Of a stretch of DNA of 64,000 bases, positions 18,476 to 60,323 are shown piece after piece (position 1 is the first letter of the stretch; each line of letters opens with the position of its first letter). A program made the translations under genes and the position numbers. Under the pieces are notes generated by a model. The model saw only the letters and a list, made by a program, of their open reading frames with translations, did not search any database and was not told the origin of the DNA. Source of the DNA: Kribbella caucasensis (GTDB lineage: Bacteria > Actinomycetota > Actinomycetes > Propionibacteriales > Kribbellaceae); NCBI RefSeq assembly GCF_004361855.1, contig NZ_SNWQ01000010.1:186001-250000 (forward strand). Direction: 5' to 3'.

Positions 18476-20230
18476 TCAGCGCTGCAGCTGGACGTTGTTG
18501 CCCTGGGCATCCTTGTTCCATCGGGAGTACCAGTCCCAGAGGACCCGTGCCTCCTCGGCGATGGTGCTGTGACCGCGACCGCGGGTGACGCCGTACCTGG
18601 CCACGGTCGTCTCGTCCGCGTTCTTCCAGGAGGAGATGTCGTACCGCCCGACTCGCTGGACCGACGCCGGAGTGGTCGGCGTACCGATTGCGTCGTTGCG
18701 GTTGATCCAGTACCGCATGGTCTCACCGACGTACGGCGTCGACAGGTCGGCCGGCCAGAAGTCGAACTCGCCGAACAGCACGAAGAACGGAAGTGTCTCG
18801 CCGGTGTAGTCGGTCGTCGACGACGTTTGGCCGCCGGAGGTCGCGCCGAGCGCGGCGAAGTTCTTGGAGAGCTCGAGGTTCTTCCCGGCCGCGATCGTCG
18901 TCATGCTCCCGTTCGACTGCCCGCCCAGATAGATTCGGCCCGGATCGACGTTGTAGTCGGTCTTGACCTCGTCGAGAAGCAGCTGCAGGAAGGTCATGTC
19001 GATGTGGGCGGCCGTCGTACCCCATCCCGTCCGGTTCTGGGTGTTGAGGCCAGTCGGCACGACGAGGATGAAACCTTCGTCATCCGCAACCTCCCACCAC
19101 CGGGAGAAATCGAACATCGAGTACATCGTCAGCCCGGAACCGTGCAGCGAGATGACGGCCGGCACGTTCTTACCCTTCCTCGCGGCCTGCTTCGCCTTGG
19201 CGGGCACATAGATCATGTACTCGCGCAGCCGACCGGCCAGCTCCATCGTCCTGAATTGGACACCGAGCTCGTCGTAGTCAGGTCGCGAGCCAAGAGTGTT
19301 GCCGCCGACGTTGCCGCCGTAGCGGGTGTAGCGCGACAGGAAGTCGTCGTAGATGCCGGCGGCGTTCTTCACCTTCTCGGCGACGGCGACGGCGCTGAGC
19401 GAGCCGTCGGCGACGTAGTACTTCAGTGCGCCCTTTCGCTGGTAGAAAATCCTTCCACCGTGGAACCCGGCAGACCTGGTCTCGGTCTGGTTGGCGTCCT
19501 TCCAATACCGGACGACACCAGCGGCCTTGGCGTCCAATCGGTCCTCCATGATCCAGACCGGAAGCGGGACGCTGCTGCTCGCGACCCGCTGACCGTTCCA
19601 GTCCGGCGTCGGATAGAACGTACTGTCCAGTTGCTTGAGAAATGCGGTGTCGATGTCGCTGGCGTTGACGAAGGTCGCCGCGGCGACGAGGGTCGGGTCC
19701 TTCATGACGATCTGCTGCAGCACCGAACCGGGGCTGTCGTACCCGACGACGTAGTAGCTCTCGGGCGGGAGGTACCAGGTGCCGCGGCCGTCGGGGGAGT
19801 TGACGCTGATGTTGGCGTAGGCCGTTTCGAGGTAGGACCGCTCCTCGTCGGGTGATCCCCACCGTCCGGACGCGTCAGGCTCGAAGACGTACAGGAGAAA
19901 CTTGTTCTTCTCGGCCAGGTCGATCCATCCGCTCTCGACCAGCCAGGAAACGGTCCGCTCACCCACCGGGACGTTGAGCACGACCATGGAGGCACCGAGA
20001 TGCGCAGCCTTGGGGACGTAGAGCTTGGCCGTACGGTCCGTGCCCGAGATGGTGCGCTCGAACAGCCCGCTGATGCCCATCTTGATGCCCGCCATCGGCT
20101 CGTAGACGGGCGTCGTGGCGCTGAGCTGCTGCACGGGCGGAAGCCCGGACGCCTTGGCCGCCCGCGCGAATCCCGTCAGGGGAACCATCATCGCGGCCGT
20201 CAGAACGATGATCAGGAGCCTGTTCTTCAC
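18476..20230 (-). CDS. Secreted esterase with two alpha/beta-hydrolase domains (PHB depolymerase/LpqC-like)
   Basis: A 584-residue protein with a Sec signal peptide (about residues 1-28, ending FARAAKA). Residues 60-300 resemble a degenerate alpha/beta-hydrolase domain with the elbow-like GYDSPGS. Residues 330-584 are a polyhydroxybutyrate depolymerase/feruloyl esterase-like domain: oxyanion loop SLHGSG, nucleophile Ser439 in GGQSNGS, and a late GRGHS histidine. It probably releases a hydroxy acid or aromatic acid from a polymer outside the cell. A TTGCGTGA palindrome upstream like that of the importer operon suggests co-regulation. Confidence 0.82.
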   Translation of the reverse strand: MKNRLLIIVLTAAMMVPLTGFARAAKASGLPPVQQLSATTPVYEPMAGIKMGISGLFERTISGTDRTAKLYVPKAAHLGASMVVLNVPVGERTVSWLVESGWIDLAEKNKFLLYVFEPDASGRWGSPDEERSYLETAYANISVNSPDGRGTWYLPPESYYVVGYDSPGSVLQQIVMKDPTLVAAATFVNASDIDTAFLKQLDSTFYPTPDWNGQRVASSSVPLPVWIMEDRLDAKAAGVVRYWKDANQTETRSAGFHGGRIFYQRKGALKYYVADGSLSAVAVAEKVKNAAGIYDDFLSRYTRYGGNVGGNTLGSRPDYDELGVQFRTMELAGRLREYMIYVPAKAKQAARKGKNVPAVISLHGSGLTMYSMFDFSRWWEVADDEGFILVVPTGLNTQNRTGWGTTAAHIDMTFLQLLLDEVKTDYNVDPGRIYLGGQSNGSMTTIAAGKNLELSKNFAALGATSGGQTSSTTDYTGETLPFFVLFGEFDFWPADLSTPYVGETMRYWINRNDAIGTPTTPASVQRVGRYDISSWKNADETTVARYGVTRGRGHSTIAEEARVLWDWYSRWNKDAQGNNVQLQR

Positions 20231-32646: not shown

Positions 32647-33753
32647 TCACCAGTGGTGGGCGATGTCGATGACGAGCCGGCTGTTCGAGCCCGGGCCGGC
32701 CAGGGTGAAGGTGCGGAACGGGAGCCGGGCGCGGACGCCCACACCGAGGGTGGTCTGGCCCTCGAAGCTGCCGGCGTGGGCGACCTGGCGGAGCGTGCGG
32801 AAACCGGTGACGTTCACCAGTTCGCGCCGGTTGGCCGGGCGATAGGTCGACTGATAATCGGCGTCGTAGTCCGGTGGCGTCACGATGATCTGAAGCTTGG
32901 CTCCGCCGCGTAACGGCACGGGGTCCCCGGAGCCGTCCATGGAGACGACCGGCACGTACCGAACGTCGTAGCTCAGGTAGCCGCCACGGACGTCGACCAC
33001 GACGCGGTCAAAGCAGGCGTGCCGGCCGGCCCGAACGTTGGTCAGGGCACCGTAGCTTGCGGCGGTGCCGGACCGCCTTCCGGCTTCGGGTAGCGAACCC
33101 CAGCCGGACGGGCAGGCGGTGGTCGCGGGGGAGGCCGTCCATCGATGGGCGATGTCGATGACGATGCGGCTGTCGTTGCCCGGGCCGGCCAGGGTGAAGG
33201 TGCGGAACGGAAGCCGGGCACGAACGCCGACACCGAGGGTGGTCTGGCCCTCGAAGCTGCCGGCGTGGGCGACTTGGCGGAGCGTGCGGTAGTCGGTGAC
33301 GTTCACCAGTTCGCGTCGATTGGCCGGCCAGTAGCTTGTCTGACCCGCCGGCGTGTAGTCAGGCGGCCGCACGATGACCTGAAGCTTCGCTCCGCCGCGC
33401 AACGGCACCGGAGCCCCGGAACCGTCCATCGACACGGCCTTGACGTAGCGGACGTCGTAGCTCAGGGAGCCGCCGCGGATGTCGATCACCAGGCGGTCGA
33501 AGCAGGCGTGCCGGCCGGCGCGGACGTTGCTCAGGGAACGGTCGTAAAGCAGGTTGCCCGCACGATGACCTGATTCAGGCAACGAGCCCCAGCCGGACGG
33601 GCAGGCGGTGGTTGTCGCTGCTGTCCGGATCGTCGCGGAGGAGGCGGTGCCGGCGAAAGTCGGTACAGCGACCGCGCCCACCGGGACGGCGGCGACGGCG
33701 AGAACGGCCAGTGCGGTTCGGATCGGTCTGCGGATGGTGTTGGTGGTCTTCAT
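32647..33753 (-). CDS. Secreted protein with two AMIN-like domains
   Basis: A 368-residue protein with a Sec signal peptide (MKTTNTIRRPIRTALAVLAV in part). Two tandem AMIN-like domains are about 75% alike: CPSGWGSLPE, RAGRHACFDR, SYDVRYV, PVPLRGGAKL, RRELVNVT, AGSFEGQTTLG and ARLPFRTFTLAGPG occur in each, ending in VIDIAHRW/HHW. Each domain has two cysteines. AMIN domains localise proteins to the cell envelope; the function of this group is unknown. The start follows GGAGG, and the promoter is one of the four conserved AAC-N17-TCTAAG boxes. Confidence 0.88.
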   Translation of the reverse strand: MKTTNTIRRPIRTALAVLAVAAVPVGAVAVPTFAGTASSATIRTAATTTACPSGWGSLPESGHRAGNLLYDRSLSNVRAGRHACFDRLVIDIRGGSLSYDVRYVKAVSMDGSGAPVPLRGGAKLQVIVRPPDYTPAGQTSYWPANRRELVNVTDYRTLRQVAHAGSFEGQTTLGVGVRARLPFRTFTLAGPGNDSRIVIDIAHRWTASPATTACPSGWGSLPEAGRRSGTAASYGALTNVRAGRHACFDRVVVDVRGGYLSYDVRYVPVVSMDGSGDPVPLRGGAKLQIIVTPPDYDADYQSTYRPANRRELVNVTGFRTLRQVAHAGSFEGQTTLGVGVRARLPFRTFTLAGPGSNSRLVIDIAHHW

Positions 33754-33775: not shown

Positions 33776-33803
33776 CTTAGACACCTCCCAGCGCCTCGCA
33801 GTT
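33776..33803 (-). promoter_or_regulatory. Conserved ECF-like promoter box (copy D)
   Basis: On the minus strand AAC (33803-33801) is followed exactly 20 bases later by TGTCTAAG (33783-33776), then GTGTCC and GGAGG before the start. The same spacing and elements precede three other loci in the window. Confidence 0.6.
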
Positions 33804-46330: not shown

Positions 46331-47110
46331 TCAGAGCTGGTGCAGTCCGCGGCGTCGCCGAACCAGGAGCGAGGCTAGGCCGATCATGATGCCGACGGCC
46401 GCCAGCAGGCCGGCGGCGACGATCGTCCGGCCGTGGTAGGAGTCATCCTGCGCGACAGGGCCAGGAAGACCAGCCTCCACCGCGGTTGGCACGCCCACCG
46501 GGGTCGACGGCACGGCGGTCGTCGCGGACGACGTGCCGGTCGTCGGCGACGTAGTCGGCGTCTCCGATGGCGATGCGGTTGGCGTACTCGTAGGCGTTTC
46601 GGTCGGCGTACCGGTCGGCGTTCCGGTTGGCGTTGCGGTTGGTGTGCCGGTCGGCGTACCGGTTGGCGTTGCGGTTGGTGTGCCGGTCGGCGGCGTGGCA
46701 TCGCACAGCACACGCACCCGGGTCTGGGCGACGAAGTCCCCGTCGGCGTTCTGGACCCGGAGCAGGTAGGTGCCGTCGTTGGGGGCGCCGAACTGGACGA
46801 GTTCGGTGCCGTGGGCGGCCACCGTCACAACGTAGTCGTCATCGTCCGGTGTGATCCCGACCATGTAGTGCTGGACCGTCGTGTTGGGGTTGCGCAGCTT
46901 GGCCACGACGCTGGGGCCCCCGTCGTGGCAGGTGACCCGTGCCTTGCTGAGCACCGGCGGCCGGACCGTGGTGGCGTGGCGCTTGTGGTCTGTGCTGCCG
47001 GTGACAGCCTGGGCCGGGGTCTGGGCTGACGCAGATGTGCTCCCCACGAGGAGCAGACCTGTCGCCAGCGTTGCGGTCAACAGACTGCCCACGAACGAAT
47101 GACGTTTCAT
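46331..47110 (-). CDS. Secreted Thr/Pro-repeat protein, probable sortase substrate
   Basis: A 259-residue protein with a signal peptide (MKRHSFVGSLLTATLATGLL in part, ending near SAQ). A small domain with two cysteines (VTCHDGG to RVLCDAT) is followed by a roughly 60-residue TPTGTPT repeat, then VEAGLPGP, a membrane helix and RRRRGLHQL. The tail has the order motif-helix-positive charge of a cell-wall sorting signal, although LPxTG is absent. The start is joined by ATGA to a leader ORF upstream. Confidence 0.82.
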   Translation of the reverse strand: MKRHSFVGSLLTATLATGLLLVGSTSASAQTPAQAVTGSTDHKRHATTVRPPVLSKARVTCHDGGPSVVAKLRNPNTTVQHYMVGITPDDDDYVVTVAAHGTELVQFGAPNDGTYLLRVQNADGDFVAQTRVRVLCDATPPTGTPTATPTGTPTGTPTATPTGTPTGTPTETPTSTPTASPSETPTTSPTTGTSSATTAVPSTPVGVPTAVEAGLPGPVAQDDSYHGRTIVAAGLLAAVGIMIGLASLLVRRRRGLHQL

Positions 47111-47292
47111 TGCCAGACCTGAATTCGCGTGCCGAGGTTTCGGACACAACAGGAACAAGCCAGTGGGCGCAGAGCCGGCGCCGACGATCGCCGGGACAGC
47201 GATCGCTCCCACCGGTACGGCGGCGAGTTCGAGCACGTGGCGGGGATAGGTAGACGGATTCTGACAGAACGGATGATGTGAAAAGACTTCAC
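47107..47292 (-). CDS. Frame-shifted leader ORF (copy C)
   Basis: A 61-residue frame starting GTG as VKSFHIIRSVRIRLPIP, the start of an AMIN-protein signal peptide, but shifted so that the rest reads YRWERSLSRRSSAP. Its stop overlaps the next start as ATGA. In the other frame the signal-peptide sequence (AVPVGAIAVPAIVGA) runs on into MKRHSFVG. A similar arrangement is at 59047-59253. It is either a coupled leader peptide or a shared relic. Confidence 0.4.
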   Translation of the reverse strand: MKSFHIIRSVRIRLPIPATCSNSPPYRWERSLSRRSSAPALRPLACSCCVRNLGTRIQVWQ

Positions 47293-47314
47293 GATGCCCC
47301 CCTTAGGACACCTA

Positions 47315-47341
47315 CTTGATGCGCCGCGGGGGATCAAAGTT
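47315..47341 (-). promoter_or_regulatory. Conserved ECF-like promoter box (copy C)
   Basis: On the minus strand AAC (47341-47339) lies 20 bases before CATCAAG (47321-47315), followed by GTGTCCTAAGGGGGG and the GTG start. Confidence 0.6.
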
Positions 47342-58055: not shown

Positions 58056-58160
58056 GGAGATGCCCGCCGTCGGCCCGTTGCTCGACCTGTACCACGTCGC
58101 TGGTAGCGACCGAGCCGAACTGATGGGCGTCGCCACACAGGCCGCCAGAGGAAGTCAGGC
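58056..58160 (+). pseudogene. Fragment of an XRE/DUF5753-type regulator
   Basis: About 30 residues (VGPLLDLYHVAGSDRAELMGVATQA) match the end of the HTH domain and linker of actinobacterial XRE regulators (pattern PLLDLYxVxDxxRAELxxLAxxA). Nothing upstream or downstream continues the match. Confidence 0.5.
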
Positions 58161-58274
58161 CGACCGCGGACCTCGAGGAGGCCCGGGAGTGGCATGTTGT
58201 GGCGGAAATCCCTCGCGATGTCTGATCGCGGTGCGTGCCGGTTCGGGCACCTGAAATCACCGCGGCATTATGTC

Positions 58275-58302
58275 AACTTCGGTTCGCGGGAGTGCATCTA
58301 AG
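58275..58302 (+). promoter_or_regulatory. Conserved ECF-like promoter box (copy A)
   Basis: AAC (58275-58277) is followed 20 bases later by CATCTAAG (58295-58302), then GTGTCTCTAAGGGGGG and the GTG start of the AMIN-like gene. Confidence 0.6.
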
Positions 58303-58325
58303 AGGTGTCTCTAAGGGGGGACCAA

Positions 58326-58916
58326 GTGAAATCCATTCACACCATCAAAACCATCCGAAGACCGATCCGTACCGCATTCGCCGTCCTCGCGGTCGCCGCA
58401 GTCCCGGTGGGCGCGGTCGCTGTGCCGGCGGTCGCCGGCGCCAACGCTGCGGCGAGCTCCAGCACCACCTGCCCGACCGGCTGGGGTTCGTTGCCTGAGG
58501 CAAACACCCGGGTCAGCACCGCGACGCTGGAGGCGGTCCGGACCGGTCGGCATGCCTGCTTCGACCGCGTGGTGTTCGACATCGCGGGCAAGCCGCCCGG
58601 CTACACCGCGCGGTACGTGTCGAACGTCTTCCGCCCGGGGGCGGGCCATCTCGTCCCGCTCCGTGGTGGCGCAAAGCTGGAGATCATGCTGGGCGTCCGC
58701 GAGTTCGACGAGGCCGGCCACTGGGCCTTCCAGCCTACGCACGAATCAAGTGTGACCGGTTACCGGACCTTCCGGCAGGTCGAGTACGCCGGCAGCACCG
58801 AGGGCGCCGCCTGGATCGGGCTCGGACTCCGCGCCCGCCTGCCGTTCCGCGTCTTCACCCTCGCAGGTCCGGGCGCCGGCAGCCGGATCGTGGTGGATGT
58901 CGCCCATCGCTGGTAA
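58326..58916 (+). CDS. Secreted single AMIN-like domain protein
   Basis: A 196-residue protein starting VKSIHTIKTIRRP, with a signal peptide nearly identical to that of the gene at 32647 (AVLAVAAVPVGAVAVP). The mature part is one AMIN-like domain: CPTGWGSLPE, RTGRHACFDRVVFD, VPLRGGAKLEI, GYRTFRQVEYAGS, RARLPFRVFTLAGPG, VVDVAHRW. It has two cysteines. GTG 58326 follows AAGGGGGG. A strong hairpin lies after the stop. Confidence 0.9.
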   Translation: MKSIHTIKTIRRPIRTAFAVLAVAAVPVGAVAVPAVAGANAAASSSTTCPTGWGSLPEANTRVSTATLEAVRTGRHACFDRVVFDIAGKPPGYTARYVSNVFRPGAGHLVPLRGGAKLEIMLGVREFDEAGHWAFQPTHESSVTGYRTFRQVEYAGSTEGAAWIGLGLRARLPFRVFTLAGPGAGSRIVVDVAHRW

Positions 58917-58924
58917 AACGGCCG

Positions 58925-58956
58925 CTGGACCTGCCGCCTCTCGGCGGCAGGTCCAG
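58925..58956 (+). terminator. Strong hairpin terminator
   Basis: CTGGACCTGCCGCC (58925-58938), loop TCTC, GGCGGCAGGTCCAG (58943-58956), nine bases after the AMIN-like stop. Confidence 0.85.
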
Positions 58957-58997
58957 ACTCATTTCGCCTCGGGGCCAGTACGACTGGGCGGATCGAT

Positions 58998-59025
58998 AAC
59001 TTTGATCTCCCCGGGTGCATCTAAG
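58998..59025 (+). promoter_or_regulatory. Conserved ECF-like promoter box (copy B)
   Basis: AAC (58998-59000), 20 bases to CATCTAAG (59018-59025), then GTGTCCTGAGGGGGC and GTG 59047. Confidence 0.6.
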
Positions 59026-59046
59026 CAAGTGTCCTGAGGGGGCACC

Positions 59047-59253
59047 GTGAAATCCTTTCACACCACCCGTTCTGTCAATCTCCGTCTACCGATCCGCACG
59101 GCGTGCGCGCAATTGTCCCAGTCGTCGCCGTACCGGTGGGAGCGGTTGCTCTCCCGGCGATCGTCGGCGCCAACTCTGCGGCGAACCGCTTCTACCTGCC
59201 GCGCGCGGGACCTCTGGATGCAACTGCCGGTTCGCGGAAGGGGCCGGCGATGA
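59047..59253 (+). CDS. Frame-shifted leader ORF (copy B)
   Basis: A 68-residue frame beginning VKSFHTTRSVNLRLPI and continuing YRWERLLSRRSSAP, the same shifted frame as the copy at 47107. Its stop overlaps an ATG (59250) as ATGA. That start gives MKRRSFVGG and stops at 59333 after 27 residues, a remnant of a secreted protein like the one at 46331. The GNAT gene follows at 59337. Confidence 0.35.
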   Translation: MKSFHTTRSVNLRLPIRTACAQLSQSSPYRWERLLSRRSSAPTLRRTASTCRARDLWMQLPVRGRGRR

Positions 59254-59336
59254 AACGCCGTTCGTTCGTTGGCGGTGCGGTGCAATGTCAAGCCGCCGGC
59301 CCTTCCGCGGCAATGCGTACAGGTGCACGCTGAATC

Positions 59337-60323
59337 ATGAAGACCATCGCTGGACTGCCCGACGGTTACACCGTCCGTTCGCCGGAGCCGACCGATGCCG
59401 AGGCACTGTTCGACATGCTCGCGGCCTACAACAAGGCGGTGGTCGGGTTCGCCGACACCACGTTGGAGGAAGTCGCCTACTGCATAGACAGGCCCGGCTT
59501 CGACCGCTCGACCGACGGCTGGCTGGTGCTCGCCGCGGACGGCCGGCCGGCCGGGTATGCGACCACGCTCGGCATCGGTGACCGTCAGCTGATCAACATC
59601 GAAGTGGCGTCGCAGGACCCAGAGGTCGCCGCCTGGCTGGTCGATCGGACGATGCAGCGCGCCCGGGAGATGGGACGCGAGCGTGGCCATGCCGAGGTCA
59701 CCGTCGACGCGTTCGTGTACCGGGCCGACGAGTCGCTGCGCGCGCAGTTGTCCGACCACGACTTCACCACTGGTACGACGTACCACCGGATGCGGATCGA
59801 CCACACCGGCCCGGCTGCCACCCCGGACGGACCCGCGGGCGTCGTGGTCCGCCGCGGTGCCTTCGACGAGGCCGCCCGCCGGGCCGCACACGAGGCCATC
59901 AACGAGTGCTTCCGCGGCCAGTTCGGCTGGGTCGAAACCCCACGCGAGGAGTGGCTCGAGGCGCACGAGGGTCTGCCCATCTTCGAGTGGTCCCAGCTCA
60001 CGCTGCTCGAGGTTGATGGCCGGGCGGTCGCGGTCCGCGTGTGCAACGACGGGTACGTCGAGACCGAGAATTGCGGTCACATCGGCATGCTCGGCGTGGT
60101 CGAGGAGTTCCGGGGGCGTGGTCTGGCGAAGTTCCTGCTGCGCGACGCCTTCGCCCTCGACGCAGCCACCGGCCGGGCCGGCACGATCCTGCATGTCGAT
60201 ACGAACAACCCGACGCCGGCCCTCGGCCTGTACCTGTCGGTCGGCATGAACGCCACCGTCGTCTTCGACGGCTGGCGCCGCGTCGTCCCCGTCACCTGGC
60301 TCCCGGGCCGCATGCCCCGCTGA
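59337..60323 (+). CDS. Double GNAT-domain N-acetyltransferase
   Basis: A 328-residue protein with two GNAT folds. The N-terminal one (about 10-155) is degenerate. The C-terminal one (160-325) has the acetyl-CoA motif GMLGVVEEFRGRGLAKFLLRDAF (in outline, Q/RxxGxG/A) and the late NPTPALGLYLSVGM segment. This two-domain form resembles mycothiol synthase relatives and antibiotic or small-molecule acetyltransferases. The acceptor is unknown. The start has no strong ribosome binding site, but ATG 59337 matches the domain start. Confidence 0.85.
   Translation: MKTIAGLPDGYTVRSPEPTDAEALFDMLAAYNKAVVGFADTTLEEVAYCIDRPGFDRSTDGWLVLAADGRPAGYATTLGIGDRQLINIEVASQDPEVAAWLVDRTMQRAREMGRERGHAEVTVDAFVYRADESLRAQLSDHDFTTGTTYHRMRIDHTGPAATPDGPAGVVVRRGAFDEAARRAAHEAINECFRGQFGWVETPREEWLEAHEGLPIFEWSQLTLLEVDGRAVAVRVCNDGYVETENCGHIGMLGVVEEFRGRGLAKFLLRDAFALDAATGRAGTILHVDTNNPTPALGLYLSVGMNATVVFDGWRRVVPVTWLPGRMPR

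Follow-up and report, generated by a model that had tools for sequence, protein, structure and literature searches.

A probable ECF-type promoter of a Kribbella regulon with apparently captured AMIN start regions

The stretch of DNA analysed here, from the soil bacterium Kribbella caucasensis (64,000 nucleotides of contig NZ_SNWQ01000010.1; hereafter the window), carries four copies of a block that is probably a stress-type promoter of the ECF class. It would serve a Kribbella regulon made up mostly of genes for secreted or membrane proteins and including AMIN start regions that other genes appear to have captured. Sequence comparison establishes the position of this putative promoter, its strict spacing, its conservation within the genus and its occurrence before unrelated gene families. 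We infer that the element is read by a single ECF sigma factor, with transcription beginning a few bases beyond the box, and that the regulon has its role in the cell envelope. The predicted −35 element is AACTT and the predicted −10 element is C[AG]TCNAA, and 17 bases separate AAC from the latter. The leader would be the translation-initiation region of an AMIN-like gene, consisting of a G-rich ribosome site, a start codon that is usually GTG, and the first signal-peptide codons. In several lineages, this AMIN start region now appears to stand in front of a different gene, which encodes either a GNAT acetyltransferase or a secreted protein of another kind. The truncated AMIN start would be joined to that gene by an in-frame fusion or by an NTGA that overlaps its start codon. 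Where there is an overlap, ribosomes may load on the strong AMIN start, end at the overlap and restart on the captured gene, a case of translational coupling.

The four copies in the window and the genes behind them

Copy A (58275..58302, + strand) has AACTT as its −35 element and CATCTAAG as its −10 box 17 bases past AAC, and copy B (58998..59025, +) has the same AACTT and CATCTAAG. Copy C (47314..47341, −) combines AACTT with the box CATCAAGT, which is also present in two relatives (L335 and L337), and copy D (33776..33803, −), the weakest of the four, combines AACTG with TGTCTAAG. All four thus have an AAC −35 element, and the box core is of the CATC type in copies A, B and C and TGTC in copy D. 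An earlier note on this DNA had placed the sites at 58275+, 58998+, 47341− and 33803−, which is correct, and its distance of exactly 20 bases from AAC to the box holds in all four copies. It had also described the cassette as fixed in spacing; this is true of the AAC-to-box part but not of the stretch between the box core and GTGTC, which is 6 bases long in copies A and C and 7 in B and D, and the GTGTCC ascribed to every copy is GTGTCT in copy A. The start codon lies 21–23 bases from the box (23 in copy A) and is, as described, (A/G)TG: GTG in copies A, B and C and ATG in copy D.

Both strands of the window were scored with a matrix whose training set was 27 sites picked by hand from other Kribbella genomes, with none from the own genome. 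Copies B (27.0), A (25.8) and C (16.6) ranked as the top three; a non-site at 19088+ came next behind copy C with 14.8, and copy D was sixth with 9.1. When the window was shuffled 50 times by mononucleotide, the best score averaged 12.2 and reached 18.8 at the highest, from which we conclude that copies A and B lie beyond chance and that copy C is borderline. The score of copy D falls below the shuffle mean, and it was kept as a copy because of its homologous leader and gene, not because of its score.

The leader of copy A (58306..58325, +), in which the transcript start probably falls, consists of TGTCT followed by a GGGGGG ribosome site (58315–58320). It leads into gene A (58326..58916, +), an intact AMIN-like gene with a GTG start that encodes 196 aa with a signal peptide (PF24837, 5.9e-41). 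Gene D (32647..33753, −) starts with ATG and encodes 368 aa with a signal peptide and two AMIN-like domains (PF24837, two stretches, 1e-89). Genes A and D are AMIN-like by profile, as both match PF24837 above the cut-off. A structural model of the gene A product (27 sequences) has a mean pLDDT of 82.5 and is all-beta. Its best PDB match was the amidase AmiC (probability 1.00, E 2.6e-3, TM 0.43), with PilQ entries lower, and no PDB match was found at E 0.001 or better; the predicted AMIN-type fold is in weak, only suggestive agreement with the Pfam name. The AMIN-like proteins may have a role at the cell wall.

The proposal that all four copies drive AMIN-like starts was borne out for genes A and D, which are intact, but not for copies B and C, where a mini-ORF leads via a remnant to a GNAT acetyltransferase gene (B) or into the gene for a different secreted protein (C). 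The mini-ORF of copy B (59047..59253, +; 68 codons) begins as an AMIN signal peptide and is then frameshifted, and its TGA overlaps the next ATG (ATGA). That ATG opens a remnant of 27 aa (59250..59333, +), which begins MKRRSFVGG and resembles the start of the gene behind copy C; the GNAT acetyltransferase gene (59337..60323, +; 328 aa; PF00583, 2.7e-11) begins 3 bases past the remnant's stop. The mini-ORF of copy C (47107..47292, −; 61 codons) leaves the AMIN frame and likewise ends with a TGA that overlaps the next ATG (ATGA). The gene entered there (46331..47110, −) encodes a secreted Thr/Pro-rich protein of 259 aa that starts with MKRHSFVG and matched no Pfam family at the thresholds applied. 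A copy of this protein with 85% identity is encoded beyond the window, some 72 kb away (C10:160904–161320), behind the same leader.

Conservation and targets of the element in Kribbella

The genome to which the window belongs is that of a Kribbella (9.46 Mb in 89 contigs), and the best named AMIN-like relatives are from Kribbella species. The genome-wide search suggested by the earlier note showed no enrichment by count alone: the literal pattern AAC-N18-RTCTAAG was matched 4 times in the 9.46 Mb, and its reversed-pattern control 3 times. The weight of the evidence lies on location and conservation. One of the 4 matches lies before a 199-aa ORF and, given the control, carries no weight. Two other patterns were rejected as definitions of the regulon by themselves, namely RTCTAAG-N3-GTGTC with one mismatch (17 matches in the own genome against 22 for the reversed control) and AAC-N17-CRTCNAAS (53 against 14, with many matches read as codons), and two further candidates (L016 and L017) were dismissed as promoter sites, both being inside genes.

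Five AMIN-like domain matches were found in the own genome, in four proteins: the gene A product, the gene D product (two domains), one on contig C7 and one on C25. The element is present at all four, two in the window and two outside; the C7 and C25 genes have AAC-N17-CATCTAAC, then a G-rich ribosome site and the start. Allowing up to three mismatches, a pattern search gave 40 matches against 34 for its control, and among these were two further clear cassettes, C36:57234 and C10:161515. Two extra sites lie before a gene for a WGxPxTE-type secreted protein (C7:324744) and before an HlyIII gene (C14:196836), the latter target being a PF03006 match. Matrix scores were 18.5, 26.7, 23.3 and 16.6 for the C7, C25, C36 and C10 cassettes, respectively, and 29.0 and 26.3 for the WGxPxTE and HlyIII sites.

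In other Kribbella genomes, AAC-N17-C[AG]TC-N-A-[AG]-[CG], followed by a ribosome site and a start, was found at 17 of 17 AMIN-like loci; these make up the whole Kribbella share of the 80 AMIN-like loci retained, the other 63 being non-Kribbella. Across the 17, the start codon lies 48–57 bases after AAC while the spacer is constant at 17, and other spacers of 12–22 bases occur only 5 times in total in the same regions. The site of K. antiqua (L087) recurs identically in a second genome, of the same genus as the own one (G005). Across 37 non-redundant cassettes, the upstream flank and the spacer held little information, and the two T residues after AAC were kept in 34 and 33 of the 37, the G before the box was kept in 35, and the A residues of the box were kept as well; AAC and TC were preset by the search pattern and are excluded here as evidence of conservation.

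Across 38 Kribbella genomes, the own genome included, AACTT-N15-CRTCNAAS had 140 matches, compared with 65 for N14 and 6 for N16; the reversed-pattern controls (16, 167 and 10 for N15, N14 and N16) track codon phase. Many matches to CGTC or to the loose pattern are coding sequence. Since loose matches are often coding and the reversed controls depend on codon phase, only the narrower forms of the motif are telling. AACTTT-N14-CRTCNAAS had 38 matches in the 38 genomes, against 2 with a spacer one base shorter and none with a spacer one base longer, and the GCATC form had 45 against 0 and 3. Within the order, AACTTT-N14-CRTCNAAC was found 23 times in the 38 Kribbella genomes versus 4 times in 109 others, and two of those four sites precede secreted-type starts. 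At the 63 non-Kribbella AMIN-like loci, AAC-N17-CGTC occurs 10 times and 15 other spacers average 1.7 occurrences, a weak signal in which at least three of the ten sites lie in coding starts. A variant with a spacer one base longer, AACTT-N16-CATCTAAG, was seen in three Kribbella genomes (L325 in G020; G031; G032); the ORF that follows it, read in G020 only, resembles by eye a site-specific recombinase gene.

The site-bearing loci that were read lie before AMIN-like genes, before genes of two secreted families (WGDPKTE and SVTAGGDHR), before HlyIII genes and before the gene for a secreted repeat-type protein. A start of the secreted or membrane type was found within 200 bases of 13 of the 34 AACTTT sites and 8 of the 9 other GCATC sites, compared with 1 of the 27 remaining matches and 111 of 2760 random positions; the rule used is ad hoc and misses most of the HlyIII and SVTAGGDHR cases. 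By eye, most of the 21 AACTTT sites that fail it precede a gene of the HlyIII or SVTAGGDHR family. The reading as an ECF-type promoter, which the earlier note had offered, draws support from the spacing at 17 of 17 loci, from the enrichment of the narrower forms in 38 genomes and from these unrelated targets.

Further features were seen around some of these promoters. At two loci, in two Kribbella genomes (L218 and L243), a second AACTTT site faces the opposite way about 45 bases from the site of a WGDPKTE gene. Five AMIN-like promoters (L088, L089, L091, L092 and L155) contain an inverted repeat in the −35/−10 spacer, e.g. CCAGTTGGCAACTGG, where a repressor could bind; this repeat is absent from the own C7 copy. 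The spacers of SVTAGGDHR-family promoters (L217 and L235–L239) contain short inverted repeats, such as GGACCAGTCC.

AMIN-like start regions in front of other genes

The earlier note had also given the promoter a 5′ leader of its own. A short ribosome-binding segment is indeed present, but only the AMIN-derived subset has it, and other targets of the promoter do without. The block of GTGTCC, GGGGG and GTGAA occurs in AMIN-derived cassettes and is absent from the other target families read, and because it is so confined, we regard the leader as the start region of the AMIN-like gene itself. A search of the window against Rfam for a structured leader or riboswitch gave no match at the gathering score.

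In at least five relatives (L355–L359), an intact AMIN-like gene lies directly 5′ of a GNAT gene. At the C36 cassette and in several relatives, the start region, without an AMIN body, runs into the GNAT gene, and at copy C, C10:161515 and their relatives, the AMIN start region leads into the gene for a different secreted protein. A cassette was found at 9 of 12 matches to the secreted protein of copy C. Thirty loci came from the GNAT matches listed, and C36 (L060) and a locus in G020 (L251) were added from other searches.

Among the matches listed, 17 captured cassettes retain leader codons; in 11 of them the mini-ORF ends in a four-base NTGA overlap, five are in-frame fusions, and one has an overlap of 26 bases. 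Two of the 11 NTGA overlaps depend on the choice of GTG or TTG as the start (G006 and G035). Outside the 17 are three matches to the secreted protein where no cassette was found (L333, L334 and L338), a cassette that lacks leader codons (L354), and a locus in G015 (L249) whose AMIN frame is broken after 50 codons, with only a GNAT fragment downstream. The distances from the leader start to the next start were 182, 182, 203, 74, 95, 104, 104, 56, 56, 86 and 212 bases, all of which are 2 mod 3, and two others fall outside this class, 192 (a fusion) and 157 (an exception). Eight of the ten distinct lengths are 2 mod 3, for which the binomial probability with equal frames is 0.003, a value weakened by the kinship of the loci; the captured loci share descent, and this weakens all such counts. 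An earlier stop in the leader frame was found in none of the 13 cassettes measured. In 78 pairs of 13 related leaders, substitutions at codon positions 1, 2 and 3 numbered 239, 249 and 393. Taken at the level of sequence, this pattern points to mini-ORFs that would be translated and coupled to the next gene. At one locus (L352, in G017), AMIN-like start codons are fused in frame to a GNAT acetyltransferase in an ORF of 337 aa.

Alternative explanations and related systems

The likeness of the four copies could simply reflect gene duplication, the block being an inherited paralogous segment with no special promoter. The leader and first codons are indeed homologous among the AMIN-derived cassettes, and copy C and C10:161515, whose downstream proteins are 85% identical, are recent duplicates. 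However, common descent alone would hardly keep the TT after AAC and the G before the box in 37 non-redundant cassettes whose flank and spacer are uninformative, nor hold the spacing constant where the length of the leader varies, and non-homologous families without the AMIN leader have this promoter too; we consider duplication an improbable explanation. The block might instead be the operator of a DNA-binding regulator and not a sigma-factor promoter, a possibility that is suggested by the inverted repeats in the spacers, e.g. CCAGTT-x-x-x-AACTGG in L089, L091 and L092 and, for the SVTAGGDHR family, GGTCCAGACC or GGACCAGTCC. These repeats are not common to the other members, whereas the parts that are conserved are two short blocks of the ECF −35/−10 type at a fixed distance and orientation to the gene, and no sigma-70-like site was found around copies A and B (58150–59400 searched), all of which makes an operator improbable.

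Copies B and C and their relatives might be decaying pseudogene remnants whose mini-ORFs and overlaps do nothing. The signal peptides of B, C and the relatives are frameshifted relative to those of the AMIN-like genes, a 27-aa remnant lies behind copy B, and the broken frame and GNAT fragment of L249 fit such decay. Decay is harder to reconcile with mini-ORFs that reach the NTGA overlap at eight distinct start-to-start lengths with no earlier stop, with the other cassettes that are fused in frame, with the frame bias of the distinct lengths (8 of 10), with the greater variability of third codon positions, or with the high promoter scores of copy B and C36, and we regard decay as unlikely, though less so than duplication or an operator. 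A further reading, to which we give a probability somewhat short of even, is a portable cassette in which the ECF promoter is combined with a strong ribosome site and a mini-ORF of 19–71 codons derived from a truncated signal-peptide gene. Unrelated neighbouring genes would have captured this cassette time and again, and in-frame fusion or NTGA coupling would keep them subject to the same sigma factor.

In translationally coupled leader mini-cistrons, of which engineered bicistronic leaders are one kind, a strong ribosome site serves a short ORF that ends on the start codon of the next gene. The Kribbella mini-ORF differs in that it derives from the truncated beginning of a gene for a secreted protein and is found before at least two unrelated families in several genomes. 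If the portable-cassette reading is true, it would be a natural counterpart of the engineered leaders. In the captured start regions, one gene would lend its promoter, its ribosome site and its first codons to unrelated genes, by fusion as well as by overlap, so that the origin of translational coupling is open to experiment here. An ECF-type regulon is already known in kind, and the captured, coupled start region is the unusual part. No published account of this Kribbella promoter or regulon was found among titles and the openings of abstracts, a body of literature that included few subscription journals. The motif itself would define a regulon that can be put to the test, consisting for the most part of secreted proteins that are uncharacterised, and would help in finding its sigma factor.

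Promoters of E. coli sigma-E have GGAACTT at −35, and the Kribbella element resembles them in its AACTT and its GTC-type −10, but it has no conserved GG before AAC and belongs to another organism group and sigma factor. For this sigma factor, PMC10012870 quotes GGAAC at −35 and GTC at −10, and for Corynebacterium sigma-E and sigma-H it gives GGAAC-N17-18-cGTT; compared with the latter, the Kribbella element shares the ECF architecture and the AAC-type −35 but has C[AG]TCNAA instead of cGTT and, again, no GG conserved before AAC. The same layout is seen in the S. coelicolor sigma-E promoters (cell-envelope stress), for which PMC6767563 describes an AAC −35, TC in the −10, a spacing of 16–17 bases, variants such as AAC-N17-CGTCTA and CATCTT, and many envelope targets. 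The shared AAC/TC layout and spacing indicate the class of the Kribbella element, not the identity of its sigma factor. Unlike the S. coelicolor promoters in that account, the Kribbella sites extend to AACTT(T), have mostly CATC and end in AA, and the targets read comprise AMIN-like and HlyIII genes as well as two secreted families that are uncharacterised; the two systems are compared by promoter layout only.

A SigE-family model had 98 matches in the own genome, 13 of them above the cut-off, and some matches are two pieces of one gene. When 83 sigma-gene loci (30 with both flanks and 53 mainly upstream; nine weak matches lay outside the scan) were scored with a matrix built from hand-picked sites that included those of the own genome (training median 28.6), no site of 18 or more was found and the best scored 13.5; autoregulation was therefore not seen at these loci. 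At three Kribbella AMIN-like loci (L121, L123 and L128; encountered again as L212), an ECF sigma gene, with no matching site visible before it, lies about 1 kb before the AMIN-like gene on the opposite strand, with another gene between them.
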